The notes beneath the pieces were generated by a model. That model was given only the letters and a program-made list of their open reading frames with translations. It had not been told where the DNA came from and searched no databases. Of a DNA stretch of 64,000 nt, positions 5,092-45,258 are shown piece by piece. This stretch comes from Blepharisma japonicum (Eukaryota; Ciliophora; Heterotrichea; Heterotrichida; Blepharismidae): NCBI GenBank assembly GCA_949751835.1, contig CATKHK010000077.1:62001-126000 (forward strand), read 5' to 3'. Each line of letters opens with the position of its first letter. Positions within the stretch are counted from its first letter, which is position 1. Position numbers and translations under genes: made by a program.

Positions 5092-5426
5092 TTAAATAAA
5101 AGTCAGGAATGAATCTTTTAAACGTCAATCTCTGGTAAAATATAGATATATATTGAAGTTTTATTATTTTGTATAATTTTTATTATAATTATCTTTTAAA
5201 GATCTTTTCTAGTCTTATTGGTGATTGGAGAGTATGATGATAATCATCAGTATAATATAATATTTCAATCCTAATCATTCATTAAGTGCTTCACAAATTT
5301 GCAGGTGTATTTCAATATTTCTCAATAGATGGTTGCTAGATATTGCTATTTTTGGATTTATACTTTTCTTTTACGTTTCAGAAATTTTCCATAATAAATT
5401 CCCTAAAAAGAGTCGAATAAATAATA
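5092..5426. other. divergent spacer with duplicated 5' flank
   Basis: AT-rich region between the MORN gene and the first phosphotransferase, on opposite strands. Its last ~48 bases (5379-5426) are nearly repeated at 7317-7365 in front of the second phosphotransferase. Confidence 0.6.
5379..5426 (+). promoter_or_regulatory. conserved 5' flank of phosphotransferase copy 1
   Basis: The block containing CCATAATAAATTCC and AGTCGAAT immediately before the ATG recurs with few changes at 7317-7365. It is either leftover from the gene duplication or a kept promoter/5' UTR element. Confidence 0.4.
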
Positions 5427-6557
5427 ATGGGATATCTGTCTGAAGAAGCAAAAAACACCTTAAAAAATCATAAGTATCATGGAAGTCCAGCCACTCCATT
5501 GATGAATTTTTTAAACAAAATTCTATGGACTCCGCTCTCTAAATTTATTCCAAATTCAATTGCTCCAAACATGATCACACTTCTCTCGACAATTTCCATT
5601 ATGTTTGGCGTCATCCTTGCCCTATTCTATAATGATCTGCAATTTGGGAAGAATTCTCCTCTCTGGGTATGGCCAGTCGCTGGCCTGTGCCTATGGCTGT
5701 ATGACACTCTTGATAATTTAGATGGACTGCATGCAAGGAAAACAGGGCAAGGCTCGCCATTAGGGCAGCTAATGGACCATGGTAACTATTATGCAGGACT
5801 TGATAGCAGCTTTAACACTTTTGCAGTATCTTTCTTGATAATCCAATGTGTAGGCCTGCATGGTACAAGTATATGGATTCCTTTGCTAAATGTTGCAGTG
5901 CAATCCGTATTCTTCTACGCAGCGTGGGAAGAAAACTTCGTAGGATCTTTAAGAATAAACCTTGGAGCAGCTGGAGTTGATGAATTCGCCTACATTCATA
6001 TTTTACAATTTATCCTCACTCCTTTTCTGGGATATGAATTTTACGAGACAGAAATTTTTCCCGGATTCCCTATTAAGGACTTTTGTGGATTATATATTTT
6101 CTTCATGTACTTTTTATTTAGATTTCTTTACAGTGCCTCCTGCTATACCATAAAAACACTGAAATTTACCAAATCCTTAGTTCCATTACTTAAGTGGATC
6201 CCTATGTTCCAGGTTTATATTGGAATCGCTTTGATTTATCAGACTGCCGTTTATAGTAAATACACTTTATTATTTATTGTAGACCAGTCTGTGCTCTTTG
6301 GGATTCTCAGCGTATGGATGGTCATCTGCAATGTGTCCAAAGTGAATTATAGCTCATTCCGTATTGATACTTCATTGTATCTGTTGTATGCCATTTTGCT
6401 ATACTGTGGGGTTGATTTCTTTAACCAATTTGAGGTCAATTTAGCAGTAACAACTGCTTTCGTTATTTATATCTGCTATTTCTTTTCATCATTGGTTTTG
6501 GAAATTGCGAATTATTTAGAAATACCAGTTTTCACAGTTAAACAGAAAAAATCTTAA
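5427..6557 (+). CDS. CDP-alcohol phosphotransferase (choline/ethanolamine type), copy 1
   Basis: Integral ER-type enzyme of the CEPT/EPT/CPT family, which transfers phosphocholine or phosphoethanolamine from the CDP-alcohol to diacylglycerol in the last step of the Kennedy pathway. Several hydrophobic helices are seen. The CDP-alcohol motif DG-x2-AR-x8-G-x3-D-x3-D starts at residue 99 (DNLDGLHARKTG). In the raw frame the last Asp is displaced by five residues (NYYAG). Removing a 15-nt intron at 5782-5796 gives DHGLDSS with exact spacing. A second consensus intron at 6107-6121 would delete an Arg from a membrane helix. With both removed the protein is 366 aa; the raw frame gives 376. Tandem paralogue at 7366-8496. 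Confidence 0.93.
   Translation: MGYLSEEAKNTLKNHKYHGSPATPLMNFLNKILWTPLSKFIPNSIAPNMITLLSTISIMFGVILALFYNDLQFGKNSPLWVWPVAGLCLWLYDTLDNLDGLHARKTGQGSPLGQLMDHGNYYAGLDSSFNTFAVSFLIIQCVGLHGTSIWIPLLNVAVQSVFFYAAWEENFVGSLRINLGAAGVDEFAYIHILQFILTPFLGYEFYETEIFPGFPIKDFCGLYIFFMYFLFRFLYSASCYTIKTLKFTKSLVPLLKWIPMFQVYIGIALIYQTAVYSKYTLLFIVDQSVLFGILSVWMVICNVSKVNYSSFRIDTSLYLLYAILLYCGVDFFNQFEVNLAVTTAFVIYICYFFSSLVLEIANYLEIPVFTVKQKKS
5782..5796 (+). other. 15-nt in-frame intron in the catalytic motif
   Basis: GTAACTATTATGCAG. It has no stop in the reading frame, so retention keeps the ORF open but inserts NYYAG between the third and fourth catalytic Asp. Splicing restores D-x3-D. Confidence 0.88.
6107..6121 (+). other. 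candidate 15-nt in-frame intron
   Basis: GTACTTTTTATTTAG fits the consensus and is conserved in position in the paralogue. Removal changes FFMYFLFRFLY to FFIFLY, deleting an Arg from a hydrophobic helix. T-rich codons make a chance match possible. Confidence 0.5.
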
Positions 6558-6615
6558 CTTAAAATAAGATAAGCATTTTAATCATTTGAAGAGCACTAAG
6601 CCATAACGAGTCACT

Positions 6616-6714
6616 TAATTATTTAATTCTTTTATTTCTTTTCAACAGTGTCTTTAGAAATCGCAAACTATTTAAAGATCCCTATATTTTATAGTCAAAA
6701 TGAAAACAGCTTAA
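6616..6714 (+). pseudogene. decayed 3' end of a third phosphotransferase copy
   Basis: This ~100-nt stretch aligns with the last ~95 nt of both flanking genes. It keeps codons for SLEIANYLKIPIF (compare LEIANYLEIPVF and LEIANYLDIPIF), then AAAACAGCTTAA in place of the tail and stop. No upstream coding remains. It starts just after the stop of copy 1, which suggests loss of a middle gene copy by internal deletion, or a partial duplication of the 3' end. Confidence 0.75.
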
Positions 6715-7316
6715 TTTATACTTCACCAAAATTTTCCTAATCAGTTAAATCTTTTCGATATTTTTTTTCGACTTAGGCATCAGAATTGGACAGTTGTCTC
6801 CCAATTTTAGTATCCTAAGTATCAAACATAATTATTCTTTGAAGTTTTCAATTTAATACACTAAAATTGTTCATATGCACCAGCATATTTCAAGAACTTT
6901 GCTTCCTTCATTCTTCGCTAGTCAAAATTATTTTGAGATTGGAATAGATGTATAAATTAATAGAAAAAGAGAGATAAGGGATAAATTCCTTTGTATTATA
7001 CTTTTTTAATTTTTTAAATGAGTGCTCTATATGAATCTAATATTTCACCATTTAAGAAAATGTTGAAATAATATAAAGATTTTTTAGCTAAAACCTAAAA
7101 AACACAATTTTAACTTAAAAATTTGAATGTATTTACTATAAAAAAAGTCATAGATTATTTTCAGTATATTGACGCATCTAATAATTAAGTATAGAGAGCA
7201 GCTATTTCTCTGAGTAATTTTCCAATGCACAAGTGTGAATGAATATGTCATAATAGCTGGCTGCTAACTAGCTGAGGATTTTTGTTTATTTGGCATTTAT
7301 ATTCGCCTTTAATCTG

Positions 7317-7365
7317 TCGAAAATTTACCATAATAAATTCCTGAAAAATAGTCGAATTAATAAAA
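7317..7365 (+). promoter_or_regulatory. conserved 5' flank of phosphotransferase copy 2
   Basis: Counterpart of 5379-5426, sharing CCATAATAAATTCC and TAGTCGAAT just upstream of the ATG. Confidence 0.4.
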
Positions 7366-8496
7366 ATGGGATATCTGACTGAAGAATCAATAAATACCTT
7401 AAAGAATCATAAATACAGAGGAAGTCCAACCACTCCACTGATGAAGCTTTTAGACAAAATACTATGGACTCCGCTCTCTAAATTTATACCAAATTCAATC
7501 GCTCCAAACATGGTTACGCTTTTTTCGACAATTTTCATTATGCTTGGAGTCATCCTTGCCCTAGTCTATAATGATCTTCAATTTGGGAAAAATCCTCCTC
7601 TCTGGGTATGGCCAGTTGCAGCCTTATGCCTATGGTTGTATGACACTCTCGACAATTTAGATGGTAAACATGCAAGAAAAACAGGTCAAAGCTCACCATT
7701 AGGGCAGCTAATGGACCATGGTAACTATTATATAGGACTTGATAGCAGCTTTAACACTTTTGCTGTATCATTCTTAAATTTCCAATCGGTGGGTCTACAT
7801 GGTACAAGTATATGGATTCCTTTAATAAATATTTCAGTCCAGTCCATATTTTTTTACGCAGCGTGGGAAGAAAACTACGTAGGCTCTGTAAGAACAACCC
7901 TTGGGTGGCTTGGAGTTGAGGAATTCGCTTATATCCACGCTATTCAGTTTGCCTTGACCTTTGTTGTGGGATATGAATTCTACGATACTGAGCTAATAGC
8001 CGGATTTGCTATTAAGGATGCTTATGGTTTGTATCTTTGCTTCATGTATTTTTTATTTAGATTTCTGTATATCGTGACCAGATACATTAATAAAACATTA
8101 AGATTTGCCAAATCCTATGCTCCATTACTCAAATGGATCCCTATGATCCAAATTTATGCTGGGACCGCATTGATTTATCAGACAAGTGTTTATAGTAAGT
8201 ATGTCTTATTATTCATTATAGACCAGTCTGTACTCTTTGGAGCTCTCAGCGTATGGATGATCATTTGCAATGTGTCTAAGGTCAGCTTTAGTCCATTTCG
8301 TATAGATACTTCTCTGTATCTATTGTATGCTATTTTAGTATACTCTGGGATTGATCTCTTTAACCAACTTGAAATCAATTTAGCAGTCACATCTGCGTTC
8401 GTTATTTATATTTGCTATTTCTTTTCTGCGTTAGCTTTAGAAATTGCAAATTATCTAGACATCCCAATATTCACAGTTAAAAAGAAAGTCGCTTAA
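7366..8496 (+). CDS. CDP-alcohol phosphotransferase (choline/ethanolamine type), copy 2
   Basis: Tandem paralogue of 5427-6557, same strand, same length and highly similar throughout (MGYLTEESINTLKNHKY against MGYLSEEAKNTLKNHKY). It has the same Kennedy-pathway role. The motif DNLDGKHARKTGQSSPLGQL is intact. As in copy 1 the last Asp only falls into register after a 15-nt intron (7721-7735) is removed. A second consensus intron is at 8046-8060. Spliced length is 366 aa, raw 376. Conservation of both introns means they predate the duplication. Differences outside the motif, including GLGSV/TTLGWLG loops, could reflect choline against ethanolamine preference; this cannot be decided here. Confidence 0.93.
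   Translation: MGYLTEESINTLKNHKYRGSPTTPLMKLLDKILWTPLSKFIPNSIAPNMVTLFSTIFIMLGVILALVYNDLQFGKNPPLWVWPVAALCLWLYDTLDNLDGKHARKTGQSSPLGQLMDHGNYYIGLDSSFNTFAVSFLNFQSVGLHGTSIWIPLINISVQSIFFYAAWEENYVGSVRTTLGWLGVEEFAYIHAIQFALTFVVGYEFYDTELIAGFAIKDAYGLYLCFMYFLFRFLYIVTRYINKTLRFAKSYAPLLKWIPMIQIYAGTALIYQTSVYSKYVLLFIIDQSVLFGALSVWMIICNVSKVSFSPFRIDTSLYLLYAILVYSGIDLFNQLEINLAVTSAFVIYICYFFSALALEIANYLDIPIFTVKKKVA
7721..7735 (+). other. 15-nt in-frame intron in the catalytic motif
   Basis: GTAACTATTATATAG, same position and phase as 5782-5796 in copy 1. Retention would insert NYYIG; splicing restores DHGLD. Confidence 0.88.
8046..8060 (+). other. candidate 15-nt in-frame intron
   Basis: GTATTTTTTATTTAG, at the position of 6107-6121 in copy 1. 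Removal deletes the Arg in the membrane segment CFMYFLFRFLY. Confidence 0.5.
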
Positions 8497-9755: not shown

Positions 9756-11336
9756 ATGGACGTGTTATTCGTTGCGTACTGCATATTTGGTGCTCTCATG
9801 CTCCTTATTCTCTTTTTCAACTACACAATAGTCAAATACTACACTGACACAAGTGAGCACTACCATTTAGCTACCATCGTCACAGTCCTATCTCTTTCAA
9901 TCACCCTATTTTGTGTCCTTCTAGTCCCAATAGATATTCTGATCGCATCAGGACGAGTAAAAGACATAAGTGATATAGATATCCCCAAAGAAACAGTCAG
10001 AAACATATTTTTAACTCTATTTTCTATCATGCTTCTATTAGCTTTTATGCTTATTCCTTTTGCGTATTTTTACGGAGAAGAACAGTTTGATGAAATCGAT
10101 TCTGATGGAAACGCGATATGTGAAAAAATCTGTGAAAGCATGAAATATACTGCCAGTTTTATGCTTATTTGTGCTGTGCTGGTTATTGTAGGACTCATTT
10201 TTAGGCCAGAAAAGGATGAATGGGGACAGGGAAAAGAATGAATCAGGCAGCTATTTGATGTGGAACATGTAGGAGAGGCTGCTATTTCTTTTACGGTGGC
10301 GTGCTTGACATTGGTAGGATTATTACTTTGGTGCTTTTATACTGCGTTTGGGATGGGAGCTATGCCTTTTACATTAATTAAAGGGAAAAAAAGTCTTGAA
10401 GAGGCCAAAAATGAGCTTGAAATGGATATTGGAGATGTCCGCGATAAAATCAGAGAAATTGAGATGAGATCAGCCAAAAGTAACACAAGAATGACAAGAA
10501 AAGAAAAAAGAGACAAAGCAAAACTCGAAAAAATGCAGAAAAAACTCATGGCAAAGTCCTCAAAAATCACTGAAAAACAAAAAGATAGTTCTCAGCTCCT
10601 ATCTAGACTATTGAAATTTTTAACCCCTTTCCGAGTCATGCTGGGAGTTTTGGCTTTGATTTTCTCCTTAATTTTCTTTTTTTCCTTATTTTTTGGAGCA
10701 ATTGACAGACTTATAAACTCTGACTGTGGATTTTCATGTGGATTTATTACTTCTTCATCATCTATTTTTAACCCTCTTGATTCTCTCCTTGTATATTTAT
10801 CCACAATGTTTCCTTTGGACTATCTGATATTTGGCTTATTAATCTTATATATATTCATTGCAAGTATTTATGGAATTGTGCGCTGGGGGATCCGTTTTCT
10901 ATGCGTCTCAGTAATTTCTATATAGGTCTTCACAATAAAAAAGAAAAGAACAATGCCTCAAGCTCTGCTTGTAGCATCAATAATAATGATGCTGGTGGTG
11001 CTTGGCATTTCTGTAGCCATTTTAACAGTCGTTCCGGCTTATACCACATTTGGCTCCCAAAAATTTGTATCAGATGGGAAAACTGTGGAGTGCTCCTTAG
11101 AAAATTTCAATGAAAATGAGTGCGTGATGTCCAATATTTCTAGCTTTTTTAATAGGTATTTTATAATCAGAATTTCTCTATCCATCCCGCTGTTTTCAGC
11201 AGTCGTATATTTGATGAACTGGCTGTTTATGGCTGTCTTCATTGTATGTGGGATCTCAGCAGCCATGCAAAAGCCTTCTTCGTCCTTTGAAGAAGACCTT
11301 GAGATCGAGGAGGAAGAAGAAGAAACATTTATATAA
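9756..11336 (+). CDS. LMBD1-type LMBR1-like multi-pass membrane protein
   Basis: 516 aa after splicing, close to the ~540 aa of LMBRD1, the lysosomal protein required for cobalamin export. Exons are 9756-10910, 10926-11155 and 11171-11336. The N-terminus holds several helices with the family pattern CVLLVPIDI. The central loop is a charged coiled coil (EEAKNELEMD to KITEKQKDSSQ). The segment after intron 1, IKKKRTMPQALLVAS, matches the (R/K)xRTxPQALL signature of LMBD1. One TGA (GKEWIRQLFDVEH) is Trp. The tail is acidic (EEDLEIEEEEEETFI). It likely sits in lysosomal or plasma membrane. The next gene starts 23 nt downstream on the same strand. Confidence 0.88.
10911..10925 (+). other. 15-nt intron
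   Basis: GTAATTTCTATATAG; it holds the in-frame TAG that would truncate LMBD1. Splicing gives CVSVFTIKKKRTMPQALL, matching the family. Confidence 0.88.
11156..11170 (+). other. probable 15-nt in-frame intron
   Basis: GTATTTTATAATCAG fits the consensus and has no stop. Splicing converts SFFNRYFIIRISLSIP into SFFNRISLSIP before the last membrane helix, a more compact and family-like join. Confidence 0.6.
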
Positions 11337-15021: not shown

Positions 15022-16155
15022 ATGGGAAACTGTTGCAGTCACCAAAGCGGAGACATGATGGACTCTCAACTACCAATATCGCGCTCCCACTTTCAATTTA
15101 ATTACATTATCGGCAGAGGAGGCTTTGCGAAAGTCTGAAAAGCCTTACGCTGTAACTCCAAAAAAGAATATGCTATAAAAGTTATGCCAAAAGTAAAAGT
15201 TTTGGCACGAAGTTCCATTAACAGCATCCTGAACGAGATGTCTTTCTTAAGTACTTTGAGAAGTCCAAGCATTGTAAACATGCATTATGCCTTTTATGAC
15301 AGCGAAAACTTATATTTAGTCCTCGATCTCATGCCTTGCGGAGATCTTAGATTCCATTTGTCTCAAAGAAAAAAAAAATTTTCCGAAAAGCAATCGAAAT
15401 TTTTTATTGCGAATATTGTGAGAAGTCTGGTATTTATCCATGGATCTCATGTTATTCATAGAGATTTAAAGCCGGAAAATTTATTATTTGATGATAAAGG
15501 TTATCTTCACTTAACTGATTTTGGAACGGCAATTAACTTGGACGAGAAAAATGGAAATTGAATGGGAGGGACTCCACAATATGCAGCCCCAGAGATGGTG
15601 CTGAGAGAAGAGCAAACGGTAGCGATTGACTACTATGCCTTAGGTGTTATATTATATGAGCTGATGACAGGCAAAAGGCCATATGAAGGAAAAAACTGAA
15701 AAGAAATGTATGAGCTTATGAAAAACGAATTTAGAGTAAGAGAAAGTGACTTACCAACGGGATGGTCAACTGATGCATTGGATTTAGTGAACAATGTAAG
15801 ATTTACTTAGTTGCTGAGAAAACAACCAGAGATGAGATTAGGATTTAATGGACCCGAAGAGGTAAAAAGTCACCCATGGCTAAGAGATATTGATTGAACT
15901 GAAATTTCTAATGGGTTAATAAGAGCTCCATTTCTTCCAAACCCAACAGCTTCTAATTTCAACCAGTTTGTTGAATTTTCACTTAATGGGAATGAAGATA
16001 AAGAAGCATTGAGCAAAAGCAAAGATTTGCTCAAAGATGAAGTAACTCATTCACTTTTTTCTGGGTTTTACTACAATGAACTCGCGCCGTACTCAGGCTC
16101 AGTTTCTAACCCAGATCTTCCTCTATTATATCAGTATAGTCCTAAATCAAAATAG
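15022..16155 (+). CDS. N-myristoylated serine/threonine protein kinase (AGC-like)
   Basis: 372 aa after one intron. It begins MGNCCSHQS, a Gly2 myristoylation signal with two Cys for palmitoylation, so membrane attachment is likely. Kinase motifs in order: Gly-rich loop [11 protein letters not shown] (Trp is TGA), AIKVM lysine, [28 protein letters not shown], and the late arginine region QPEMRLGF. After the catalytic domain it ends [10 protein letters not shown] with an AGC-like C-terminal tail. Four TGA codons (KVWKA, NGNWMGG, GKNWKEM, RDIDWTE) fall where Trp or a large residue is acceptable. The intron 15796-15810 removes an in-frame TAG. Substrate unknown. Confidence 0.92.
15796..15810 (+). 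other. 15-nt intron
   Basis: GTAAGATTTACTTAG, phase 0, contains the in-frame TAG. Splicing joins LVNN to [12 protein letters not shown], the expected subdomain XI of the kinase. Confidence 0.93.
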
Positions 16156-18598: not shown

Positions 18599-19921
18599 TT
18601 AATATCTTGGCCTGTCTTTGATGATCCAAACATAGTCAATCTCAGTCAATGCTTGAGAACTGAATTGTTCCCAATACATATGAGTGGTATTAAAAGCAGT
18701 TAGTCTTCCATAACCATAATCGCTGCTTAGATATCTCGCATAAGGTGCTGGGGTGCTAGAAACTGGATTATTCTTCTCATAATTCCCTGCTCCTCCACTT
18801 TCTATATAAATCGGTGCATTTGCATTAATATGCATATTTTGGCTATCGAATTCGCTGTTAACAGTCATGTTTTTATAAATGGCAACATCTCGTTCGTAGT
18901 TATGAACGTGGCCTTGGAGTACAAGGTCGACACTATTATTATAGAAAATATCTTCTAATATTGGTCTGATAACTGCTGGCTGATTTGCACAGTTGTCCAT
19001 GATAGAACTATCATTTAATTGTTGTGAACAGTACAGTGGATGATGCATAAGGACAACGATCCAGGGTCTGATATCTCTGTTTTGATTGGCGGCGGCTAAA
19101 TCATTACTAAGCCATTGAGTTTGGACTTCAGCTTCAGTCTGATAAGAACTGTGGAAATAGGAGTTTGAGTTTATTAATACAAAATGGACTGGACCAAGGT
19201 TTAAAGAATAAAAATAGCCAGTTCCTTGATTATATCCATTATTAGGCATGCTAAATCTTGACTTGTAGTGGCTATAGTTGTTGAAGCTTTCATGATTTCC
19301 TGGTTCTACCATATACGGAAAACTCGCGACTATAGGTTCGACCATATTCAAATAGTCGTCTCCGATCTTTCCATTATCAGTATCTAGGTCATAAGCAATA
19401 TCTCCCATATGTAAAATTCCTAAATAATTCCTTGATTTCGACTCTTCTTCCAATAAATATTTCGTAAAATGCCCTATATGTCCAGATCCCCAGTCTCCCA
19501 AAATTACCATAGAAATAGAGTTATCTACATCATAAAAAGTTGTAGAATTATCTGGAGTTCTTCCACTGAAAACATAAGTTTTCGATTTAATTCCGGTGTT
19601 ACTGACTTGGTACTCATACCAACAAGAAGGGATAAGATCTGTAAATAAAGCTGTATGAATAAATTGGTAATGATTGTAGGTCGTATTTCCTTGTAAAAAT
19701 TTAGTGCTTTGAGCTGTAACAGCGGTAAAGTTAGAAGGGGAAGGGACATTTCCACAGAGAATTGGCCGATAAAATGCTTTAGGGAATGCTGAGAGGTAGG
19801 TTACCCAGGTGACACGAATTTGGTTGGGCTCTGAAGTCCAGGATAAATGAATTTGCGAAGGGTGGATTAAGCCTAAAGAAATCGATGCTTGAGTGATAAG
19901 AAGGATAAGCAGGTGCATCAA
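18599..19921 (-). CDS. purple acid phosphatase
   Basis: 440 aa metallophosphatase that hydrolyses phosphomonoesters at low pH. A signal peptide (MMHLLILLITQASISLGL) sends it to the secretory or lysosomal route. An N-terminal fibronectin-like domain (IHLSWTSEPNQIRVTWVT) precedes the catalytic domain. All five family blocks are present: GDWG (Asp143), GDIAYD (Asp174, Tyr177), GNHE (Asn209), MHHPLY (His293) and GHVHNYER (His338, His340). The Tyr after the second block is the charge-transfer ligand that gives the purple colour. Several N-glycosylation sites (NFT, NTT, NDS, NMT) fit secretion. Complete and apparently active. Confidence 0.95.
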   Translation of the reverse strand: MMHLLILLITQASISLGLIHPSQIHLSWTSEPNQIRVTWVTYLSAFPKAFYRPILCGNVPSPSNFTAVTAQSTKFLQGNTTYNHYQFIHTALFTDLIPSCWYEYQVSNTGIKSKTYVFSGRTPDNSTTFYDVDNSISMVILGDWGSGHIGHFTKYLLEEESKSRNYLGILHMGDIAYDLDTDNGKIGDDYLNMVEPIVASFPYMVEPGNHESFNNYSHYKSRFSMPNNGYNQGTGYFYSLNLGPVHFVLINSNSYFHSSYQTEAEVQTQWLSNDLAAANQNRDIRPWIVVLMHHPLYCSQQLNDSSIMDNCANQPAVIRPILEDIFYNNSVDLVLQGHVHNYERDVAIYKNMTVNSEFDSQNMHINANAPIYIESGGAGNYEKNNPVSSTPAPYARYLSSDYGYGRLTAFNTTHMYWEQFSSQALTEIDYVWIIKDRPRY

Positions 19922-24062: not shown

Positions 24063-25661
24063 ATGGAAGTAATAAGTAAAAGACGCAAAGTAATTTCAAA
24101 TCAGCTCGCAGAGGACCCATTAGCTCTCTTTTCCTCCCCAGATAGAAAAACCGAAGCTGTAAGAATCATCTTACAAAGCTTGCGTGAATTTGGTTTTGAG
24201 TAACCTTTACACAGTAAATCAGCAGCGCAGCTCGAAATGGACTCCGGTATCAAGCTCGAAAACGAGAACGTCGAAAAGTTCAAAAAAGGCATCATTGAAG
24301 GCCAATGAGACCAAGTGACATCAATAGTCCCTGAATTTAACATCCAAGCCTCCAAACAATCAAAAATTCATTTTTGTTTAAAAGAACAGAAATACCTAGA
24401 ACTTATCGAACATGGCGATTTTCAGCGAGCCTTGGACTGTTTAAGAAATGAATTGACCCCAAACCACCAAGAAGACCATGAAAAGCTTCACAAGCTTGCT
24501 AGCCATTTATTATGCCAATCTCCAGATGAGCTTAAAAGGACAGCAGACTGGACAGGCTCATCTTCACAAGCTAGACAGCAGCTGTTAAAAAAGGTCCAAT
24601 ATTTTATACCCCCAGATATCATGATTCCGCCTGATAGGCTTCAATTGTTGCTCTCCCAAGCTTTGACGCACCAAATATCTGAATGCAAATATCATAGAGA
24701 TTTTAAAGACACCCACAGTCTATTAGAAGACCATATGTGCGAAAATCAGCTTTTTTCTGCTAAAAATATACAGACGATTGAAGGAGGTAATGAAGAAGAA
24801 GTATGAGACGTGGTTTTTAGTAATAATGGAGAAGCAATGGCCAGTATATGTAAAAATACTACAATAAGTATATGGAATTTCACTGAGCAAGGCTTTACGA
24901 AAAGGTTTGACATTTTAAATTCACATGACCACAATGTGCTGAGCGTCTCATGAAGCCCTAATAATGATAGAATTCTTAGTACTGGAGCTGATGGGGTTAT
25001 AAAGCTCTGAAACGCCCAGACTGGAGAGTTTATAAGCGAGTTTAAAGAACATACAGATAAAGTTACCAGCAGCGAGTGGTTAAATGACAGAGAATTTATA
25101 TCAGGAGGGGTCGATAGGAAATTCATGGTCTGGAAATGTGCAGGCGAAAAGCAAAAATTGCTAGACATCAGGGTGCGGCAGCTTCAAAAATCAGAAAACA
25201 GCAAAATCGTCGCAATTTTGAACGCTGCCATAAACGAAGTAATAATTTACAATATAGAAACACACGAAGAAATCACCAGGATAAAAGAAGATGACAAGAT
25301 CACCTGCATCTCCTTATCAAGCTCTGGTAATGAGCTTATTACCAATGTAAGCTTAACCGACCCTCATTTAAACCTATGGAACATCCAAACTGGCTGCCTC
25401 ATCCAATTGTATAAAGGCCACTTACAAGAAAAATACCAATTAAAACCTTGCTTTATTGGGCTAAAAGAAGAGCTTATCGCCTGTGGAAGCGAAGACGGAA
25501 GCATTTTTATATGAAATAAGCTCCATGGGACTGTGCTAGTAACGCTAAAAGATCATACTGGCCCTGTTAATTCAATTGCATATTCCAGACTCAGACCACA
25601 CTGCTTGGTATCTGCAAGTGACGATGGGTCGTTAAAGGTTTGGTCTTTAACAGATAATTAA
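24063..25661 (+). CDS. WDR26/GID7-like LisH-CTLH-WD40 protein
   Basis: 527 aa after splicing a 15-nt intron at 24200-24214. It starts MEVISKRRKV; a LisH helix pair (REFGFDKSAAQLEMDSGI) is followed by CTLH (FKKGIIEGQWDQVTSIVPEF, then LELIEHGDFQRALDCLRNEL). WD40 blades run from about residue 235 to the end. WDR26/Gid7 is a subunit of the CTLH/GID E3 ubiquitin ligase. TGA encodes conserved Trp at EGQWDQ, EVWDVVF, SVSWSPN, KLWNAQ and FIWNKL. The stop TAA is 7 nt from the stop of the convergent gene 25669-26283. Somewhat shorter than animal WDR26 but all domains are present. Confidence 0.93.
24200..24214 (+). other. 15-nt intron
   Basis: GTAACCTTTACACAG; contains the in-frame TAA. Splicing restores the LisH motif GFDKSAAQLE. 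Confidence 0.92.
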
Positions 25662-43734: not shown

Positions 43735-45258
43735 TTAATTAAATTGGTTTGGCTTATAAGTAGTTATCCGAGGTCTAAAAGTGCAGCCTTCAACTTCATT
43801 ATCGTAATTTTGCTGTTTTTGATATTCCAGCTTAGCTTGTGTTATTTGCCTTATCTCCAACTGCCTTTCATACATATCTGCTCCTTCAAAGCTTGTCATC
43901 GATAATGATTTTTTCTTCAATGATTTACTTTCTTCAATTATTGGCTTCTTTTTAATAGTAATAAGATTTTTATCTGTGTTGCATAGCAATTTGCATAAAT
44001 TGTCCATAGATTCACAGAATTCTCCAAAGCTTAGCTTTTGGTTTATTGATTGAAGCTCTTCTAAAAATGGCCTTATAATTTTATAAACATCTTTTTCTAT
44101 ATTTTCAATGTTAACGTTTTCATAGGTAATTTCTCCTTGAGAATCTGGAGAAAGTTGTTGATAAATATCAAAATATCTTTCAATTTTAGTTTTTTGAAGA
44201 ATTTTATTTGATCTCGCCTTACTCTCCATCTCTATTGGCTGATGAGGAAATTCTTGCGGCTGAGGGCTTTTTCTTTTCAATCTATACAAAAAATCTCCAA
44301 TAGGTATATCATTCCTATTTCTTTCAATTGTAGGTGGTCTTCCAATAGTAGGTTTGAATAGCTCCTGCCCTGTATCTCTATCTATAGGCAACTCCATGAT
44401 TTTTCTTTCATAATCAAGCCTTTCTTCCACATATTTTTTCGATAAAAGCAACCTTTCCACTACATCTTCATTATTACTAGAATTACTAATAATATTTGGC
44501 CGAAAAGTGCATACTTTTTTTAAGCTATATAAATCTTACTATTGCTTCGCCAATTCTTCCCTTTTCTTTTTCAAATCATAAGCTTCATTATATAAATCAG
44601 TAAATTTATCTTCAGATGCCGGCCTACTTCTATTTAAAATCTGCTTGCTCATAGGATTAACCGTCGGAGTAAAGGTACACTCTCTTTGGTCAATTGCATA
44701 TTGGAGCTCTTTTTCCTGGTCAATTTTAAGTAGCCTTAATCTCTCTTTTTCATATAAATATTCTGCTAAGTGTCTATGTCTTCTTTTATTATTTGAAGGA
44801 AATTCACTAATTTTTGGCATAAACGTTAACTCTTTCTTTTCTTTTTCTTCCTCATAATGCCTTTTCTTTTCGTTTTCTTCTTCCAGCTGTTCCATAAACT
44901 CTATGCCTTTATTATAAAGAATTTCCCCAAAATTTGAGTTTGAAGCTTTTTTCAGTTTATTGGCTGCCTGGATTCTTTCATAAACAGGCTTCATTGTAGC
45001 AGGATTCGCCTTTGCCTGAGCAATCTCAGCTGCCTTTTCATGCTCTTCTACCAGCAAACCGATTTGGATCGCAATTTGTTCAGAGAGTCGTTTTTCGATT
45101 ATTTGGTCCAAATTAAATTTCGCTGCAAATTCATGCACAATTTCATCAGGAATATCGTTTTCATGGATAATTAGCCTTTCTTTTCCTACTTTTCCTAGCT
45201 CAATGTGCATTATTAAAATTTCCTTTCCTTTTCCATTCGAGAAATTTTCTTGTTCCAT
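43735..45258 (-). CDS. coiled-coil protein with repeated F-x-P-x-I motifs
   Basis: 502 aa after one intron (44525-44539). Exons 45258-44540 and 44524-43735. A short motif recurs: LTFMPKISEF, CTFTPTVNP, CTFRPNIIS, LFKPTIGRPP and CTFRPRITTY, each separated by charged helices (KKKREELAKQ, KKYVEERLDYERKIM). Such FxP repeats occur in protist cytoskeletal and flagellar proteins. The helix EITYENVNIENIEKDVYKII suggests an EF-hand-like region. Without splicing the gene reads as two proteins. Gene 45281-45925 lies upstream on the same strand with a 22-nt gap. Confidence 0.8.
44525..44539 (-). other. 15-nt intron
   Basis: GTAAGATTTATATAG on the minus strand. The apparent TAG stop straddles the 5' splice site; splicing gives LAKQYLKKVCTFRPNI, restoring an FxP motif. 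Confidence 0.9.

Follow-up and report, generated by a model that had tools for sequence, protein, structure and literature searches.

Do short, stop-free sequences that break the active site of an enzyme represent introns and, if so, may their retention serve to regulate it? The question is raised by two tandem genes, A and B, for CHPT1/CEPT1-like CDP-alcohol phosphotransferases in the heterotrich ciliate Blepharisma japonicum. Both lie in a stretch of 64,000 nucleotides, hereafter the window, which corresponds to positions 62001-126000 of contig C77 in a genome of 45.2 Mb and 224 contigs. A preliminary description of this DNA had pointed out that in both paralogues the catalytic motif is broken by five extra residues, unless 15 nt (A1 in gene A, B1 in gene B, collectively intron 1; Table 1) are spliced out. 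It further proposed that retention would yield a full-length, probably dead enzyme invisible to nonsense-mediated decay (NMD) and, as a speculation, that this could act as a splicing switch on phospholipid synthesis. We consider with good confidence that A1 and B1 are ordinary heterotrich spliceosomal introns, normally removed, whose excision would complete the motif with its fourth aspartate (D4), retention being a decay-blind cost and not a demonstrated form of control.

The interrupted catalytic motif

Both genes match the Pfam family PF01066 and the solved CHPT1/CEPT1 structures (PDB 8ero, 8gyw and 9uet). With intron 1 removed, the E-values of the structural matches are 1.5e-21 for A and 4.6e-21 for B, and for each gene four of the five PDB sequences are matched over near full length. 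Coordinates, sequences and frame of the two 15-mers proved to be as first described: both are in frame and free of stops. Read without splicing, the genes encode MDHG-NYYAG-LDS (A) and MDHG-NYYIG-LDS (B), the insert falling between D3-H-G and L-D4. Without the 15-mers both feature D-N-L-D-G-x2-A-R-x8-G-x3-D-H-G-L-D, a complete four-aspartate motif, and only in this form do they conform to the motif of the class, D-x2-D-G-x2-A-R-x8-G-x3-D-x3-D.

Removal of intron 1 also improves the match to PF01066, from 32.2 to 41.7 bits in A and from 36.7 to 42.2 bits in B. Comparison with CHPT1/CEPT1 points in the same direction, the phmmer score rising for all five matching PDB sequences (by 8.7-10.1 bits in A and by 8.7-9.6 bits in B). 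The proposal that the 15-mers are introns splitting the catalytic motif is supported for both paralogues.

The likely effect of retention may be judged from mutants of the solved enzymes. According to the available text of PMC10182977, the four aspartates of Xenopus CHPT1 bind two magnesium ions, and alanine at any of them leaves less than 20% of the activity; the corresponding portion of PMC10156783 gives about 15% activity for human CEPT1 D158A, a residue which, counting from the motif spacing, is the fourth aspartate. Retention would shift D4 by five residues and, by analogy with these mutants, we infer that the retained enzyme is probably dead, as had been proposed. The catalytic Glu-His pair of Xenopus CHPT1 (Glu129/His133) is not found as such in A and B: the His is kept, while the Glu is replaced by Gln (GQLMDHG in gene A versus GEMFDHG or GELFDHG in the solved CHPT1/CEPT1). 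Because of this replacement the two products, which share with CHPT1/CEPT1 the four-aspartate motif and the extent of the match, but differ at this site and are distant in sequence, are classed only as CHPT1/CEPT1-like, their exact activity being uncertain.

Related genes and the 15-nt intron class

A PF01066 profile search of the genome detected at least 11 places, a lower bound, A and B among them. The five residues, whose presence in relatives had been named beforehand as evidence against introns, are encoded by none of the nine other places found. In eight of them (C16, C19, C70, C153, C14, C28, C1 and C141) D-x3-D is uninterrupted. The ninth, C32, contains a 16-nt sequence, GTATATATTAATATAG, at the exact site and phase of A1 and B1 (locus L014:3222-3237). 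This sequence shifts the frame and brings in a stop, and must therefore be removed, which strongly supports the A1/B1 position as an intron site. After splicing, C32 carries Asn in place of D4, and its product may be weak or inactive.

One of the eight, C141, harbors GTAACTTATATTCAG, in phase 1 and free of stops, between the AR and the G of the same motif (locus L017:3186-3200). Its removal restores the x8 spacing and raises the PF01066 score from 30.6 to 41.9 bits, on a partial gene model. Lying at another place of the motif, it represents an event separate from A1/B1. The gene itself is presumably PI-synthase-like, to judge from its motif; its assignment to PF01066 is by profile score.

A1 and B1 differ at two of 15 bases. 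Both changes fall in a single codon, which on retention reads Ala in A and Ile in B; as they are non-synonymous, the five residues are not kept as protein. In a tree of seven paralogues, in which A and B were entered with intron 1 only removed and from which C14, C28, C1 and C141 were left out, A and B are sisters with strong support. Since they are also tandem copies with an exon identity of 81.5%, A1 and B1 are most simply regarded as shared by descent from one ancestor, and not as two independent cases. This tree does not settle how C153, C32 and the A/B pair branched, so that intron gain and loss cannot be ordered.

Sequences resembling A1 and B1 recur throughout the genome. GTAANTNTTATATAG, a pattern containing B1, is found at 197 places, versus eight for the reversed pattern; GTAANTNTTATGCAG, which contains A1 and has its ending, is found at 45, versus one for its reverse. 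All 20 examined GTAANTNTTATATAG places, taken in list order from the 197 with one passed over, and including two near-identical paralogues in phase 0, lie in coding context, as judged from open frame and codon score. The 25 15-nt candidates containing in-frame stops have a consensus near GTAANNTTTATATAG, with an A at position 10 (A10) in 25 of 25, this base being a condition of the search; in a scan where it was not required, A10 was found in 11 of 13. Length of 15 nt, GT...AG ends and A10 are shared by A1, B1 and the candidates A2 and B2 described below. Further 15-nt intron candidates with in-frame stops occur in other genes of the window, at 10911-10925, 15796-15810, 24200-24214 and 44525-44539 (minus strand).

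Introns of 15 nt are in themselves normal in heterotrichs. In Stentor coeruleus they make up 92.81% of annotated introns, their branch-point A being almost always at position 10 (PMC9505925, available text); Blepharisma stoltei, with a somatic genome of 41 Mbp, has introns mainly of 15 and 16 bp and reads UGA as tryptophan (PMC9942806, available text). The introns described here resemble those of both species in length, GT...AG ends, A10 and number, one or two per gene, but differ in that all four are stop-free and that intron 1 interrupts a catalytic motif. In 90 long frames of B. japonicum, delimited by treating only TAA and TAG as stops, in-frame TGA is frequent, at 0.41% of codons versus 0.82% for TGG.

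Restoration of the motif, the genome-wide excess of the class, the absence of the insert from nine homologues and the C32 intron make it very likely that A1 and B1 are introns. Were the five residues instead a real protein insertion, the open frame and the full-length proteins would be accounted for, but D4 would be out of place in a motif that is intact elsewhere; moreover, a frame-shifting intron occupies the same site in C32, and the 15-mers belong to intron-like classes in strong excess. As none of the nine other places found in the genome encodes the residues, such an insertion is rejected, and its probability is put close to nil.

A few observations weigh against the intron reading. The narrow core shared by A1 and B1, GTAACTATTATNNAG, is not in excess in the genome, with nine places, A1 and B1 among them, versus seven for the reversed pattern, which speaks for a protein insertion. 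In the window, GTAA-N(7 to 9)-AG occurs 96 times versus 83.5 expected, a count reached by seven of 100 shuffles. On a matrix built from the stop-containing candidates B1 scores 15.5 bits and A1 10.6, a value low enough that gene A might show some retention; four of the 25 stop-containing introns, scored while left out of the matrix, fall below A1. Finally, the splicing of A1 and B1 is itself inferred, from motif restoration and homologues.

A probable second intron pair

Each gene contains a second stop-free 15-mer, A2 and B2, which the preliminary description did not mention; the pair probably consists of introns as well, and is what is new here. Their site is occupied in C153 by GTAAATTTCATATAG, an intron likewise in phase 2, whose TAA lies in frame. 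A2 and B2 keep both A10 and the terminal TAG, while at position 4, where C153 has GTAA, they have C or T (GTAC/GTAT), hence no stop. The score is 13.4 bits for B2 and 10.0 bits for A2; in codon-shuffled frames (204 kb) phase-2 15-mers of at least 13 bits occur with a mean of 0.05, and those of at least 10 bits with a mean of 0.93. The GTAY-type pattern GTAYTTTTTATTTAG is found at 37 places in the genome versus four for the reversed control, a 9-fold excess. Removal of A2/B2 raises the scores against in-genome paralogues in all ten comparisons, by 0.1 to 6.3 bits. Five paralogues, C153 (its own intron removed), C32, C70, C19 and C16, are gapped here, in a poorly conserved region where the alignment is unsure.

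For this pair only, it is possible, if rather doubtful, that former introns have turned coding: the change from GTAA to GTAC/GTAT would have abolished the stop, and the residues MYFLF would always be translated. The base differing from C153 is indeed exactly the one making TAA, and A and B differ there as TAC and TAT, synonymous if translated. Moreover, the gain against paralogues is slight, and removal moves the scores against the PDB CHPT1/CEPT1 sequences both ways, with no clear preference for it, which also counts against an intron. Such a conversion is harder to reconcile with the 9-fold excess of GTAY-type 15-mers, with the retention of A10 and TAG, and with the gaps in the five paralogues. 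If A2 and B2 are introns, each pre-mRNA would be an uninterrupted frame of 376 codons holding two introns. A 16-mer at 5907 in gene A, also considered as an intron, was discarded as a pattern match only: it encodes FFYAAW, and is present in both genes.

Intron phase, decay and the tandem locus

In the mechanism that we favor, splicing would join D3-H-G to L-D4, completing the di-magnesium site of a CHPT1/CEPT1-like phosphotransferase, and the second 15-nt intron of each gene would probably be spliced too. All four introns are stop-free because 15 nt keep the frame, TAA and TAG of the phase-1 pair are out of frame, and the phase-2 pair has GTAC or GTAT. An unspliced message would be translated to its end and pass NMD, and in the resulting enzyme D4 would lie five residues out of place. 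The earlier proposal that retention leaves the frame open holds for both genes along their whole length (Table 1); no premature stop would be added, and the expectation that NMD would fail to see the retained form is likewise supported, in a genome in which UPF1 (two places) and UPF2 (one place) domains are present.

Whether a retained 15-nt intron exposes a stop depends largely on phase. As read directly from the consensus, the final TAG falls in frame in phase 0, and the TAA of GTAA does so in phase 2; in phase 1 neither is in frame, and a stop arises only if, for example, T9-A10 precedes A or G. The 20 sampled GTAANTNTTATATAG places comprise nine in phase 0, nine in phase 2 and two in phase 1. 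Among 35 motif-scored 15-mers in coding context (320,509 bases), a set which includes tandem duplicates and some weak rows and was not individually checked, six are in phase 1, two of them with a stop. Stop-free members are six of these 35, four in phase 1 and two in phase 2 (one being that at 8046), and two of the 20 pattern-picked introns. Compared with one third, the phase-1 share gives two-sided binomial probabilities of 0.03 (2/20), 0.05 (6/35) and 0.002 (pooled, 8/55). Phase-1 15-nt introns thus seem under-represented (loci L018-L037 and L038-L057), a lead drawn from small counts; 16-nt introns, with two of the break type in the 320,509-base sample, were too few to serve as a control. 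Such a bias fits selection for decay-visible introns, as described for other ciliates in the available parts of PMC5014332 and PMC5663052.

Stop-free introns are not confined to genes A and B. The open frames of at least 200 codons in the window plus 200 kb of C1 (203,778 bases) contain 16 stop-free 15-mers that score at least 10 bits, A1, A2, B1 and B2 included. One hundred codon shuffles give 7.2 on average and never more than 14, so that roughly nine of the 16 may be genuine. With the cutoff lowered to 8 bits there is no clear excess (22 versus a shuffled mean of 16.4, maximum 27). Candidates elsewhere are found at 19168 and 174167 of the C1 sample, in addition to that of C141. Stop-free 15-nt introns are a minority class, following from length, phase and a few bases.

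These data bear on the splicing switch, in which intron 1 would be kept conditionally, giving a stable dead protein and less phosphatidylcholine/ethanolamine synthesis with no mRNA decay. In its favor, retention neither shifts the frame nor adds a stop in either gene, and with the second introns this holds over the whole pre-mRNA; intron 1 sits inside the active site; and A1 scores below B1. On the other hand, the C32 intron at the same site shifts the frame and meets a stop, so that the stop-free state is not family-wide, and the retained isoform, NYYAG or NYYIG, is not conserved as a coding unit. In Paramecium, the majority of splice variants are ascribed to error, and splice signals were stronger in NMD-invisible introns (PMC5663052, available text). 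Given the presence of stop-free 15-nt introns elsewhere, and a state shared by A and B through descent, the switch finds no support, and we regard it as quite improbable. Similarly little probability is assigned to the broader idea that, in a genome with introns almost all of 15 nt, whole genes evolved to be read with or without splicing. Both introns of A and of B would then be stop-free, the second pair through a change at just the base that creates the stop in C153; they would serve as five-residue cassettes, and the one in the active site would switch phospholipid synthesis on or off independently of decay.

Decay-blind retention would rather be a cost of stop-free introns. A refinement compatible with ordinary, normally removed introns, and one we find fairly probable, is that low-rate retention escapes decay while selection keeps splicing efficient. 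The available text of PMC5663052 describes such a pattern for NMD-invisible introns of Paramecium, and the under-representation of phase-1 introns, which by consensus are usually stop-free, is in keeping with it. Against it, the phase counts are small, the bias may have other causes, and the agreement of A1 with the consensus is not particularly strong.

NMD-invisible introns of Paramecium, 12,996 out of 65,159 and thus a minority there too, share with those described here retention without a premature stop (PMC5663052, available text); they differ in that heterotrich introns are almost all of one length, visibility being set by phase and a few bases, and not by length. Exitrons, as presented in the accessible part of PMC10985678, are likewise frame-keeping, stop-free introns within coding sequence; in contrast, a retained exitron gives a protein variant, whereas retention here, should it occur, would probably give a dead enzyme. 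In the Stentor splicing paper (PMC9505925), searched by term, "in-frame", "stop codon", "nonsense", "retention" and "alternative splicing" are all absent, and "phase" occurs in the references alone. Literature searches linking intron retention with cholinephosphotransferase gave nothing on topic among the matches listed, and found no paper joining heterotrich introns, phase and decay, nor any on Blepharisma introns worded "15 nt", PMC9942806 writing "15 and 16 bp".

Heterotrichs, in which the length of almost all introns is divisible by three, put splicing surveillance to the test. The phase bias is a lead that can be tested genome-wide; should the under-use of phase 1 hold at that scale, it would point to selection, acting via intron phase, for introns that decay can detect. 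Genes A and B, stop-free along their whole length and interrupted at the active site, lend themselves to tests of splicing accuracy without the safety net of decay. Gene finders can miss stop-free introns, and predicted heterotrich proteins may consequently carry false five-residue inserts.

Table 1. Features of the tandem phosphotransferase locus (window coordinates)
Feature	Coordinates	Strand	Remarks
Gene A, CHPT1/CEPT1-like CDP-alcohol phosphotransferase	5427..6557	+	unspliced: one open frame, 376 codons
CDP-alcohol phosphotransferase motif, gene A (D1 to D4), intron-interrupted	5712..5804	+	hand-counted coordinates
Intron A1 (very likely), 15 nt, phase 1	5782..5796	+	GTAACTATTATGCAG; stop-free, A at position 10
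Probable intron A2, 15 nt, phase 2	6107..6121	+	GTACTTTTTATTTAG; stop-free; site of C153 stop-containing intron
Relic, 3' end of third tandem copy between genes A and B	6619..6718	+	74-77% identity to A and B ends
Gene B, tandem paralogue of gene A	7366..8496	+	unspliced: one open frame, 376 codons
CDP-alcohol phosphotransferase motif, gene B (D1 to D4), intron-interrupted	7651..7743	+	hand-counted coordinates
Intron B1 (very likely), 15 nt, phase 1	7721..7735	+	GTAACTATTATATAG; stop-free, A at position 10
Probable intron B2, 15 nt, phase 2	8046..8060	+	GTATTTTTTATTTAG; stop-free; site of C153 stop-containing intron

The relic of a third copy is context, and lies outside the proposed mechanism. 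The 43 bases directly 5' of the two start codons (5382-5424 for A, 7321-7363 for B) are 88% identical, and a shared promoter or 5' leader is possible.

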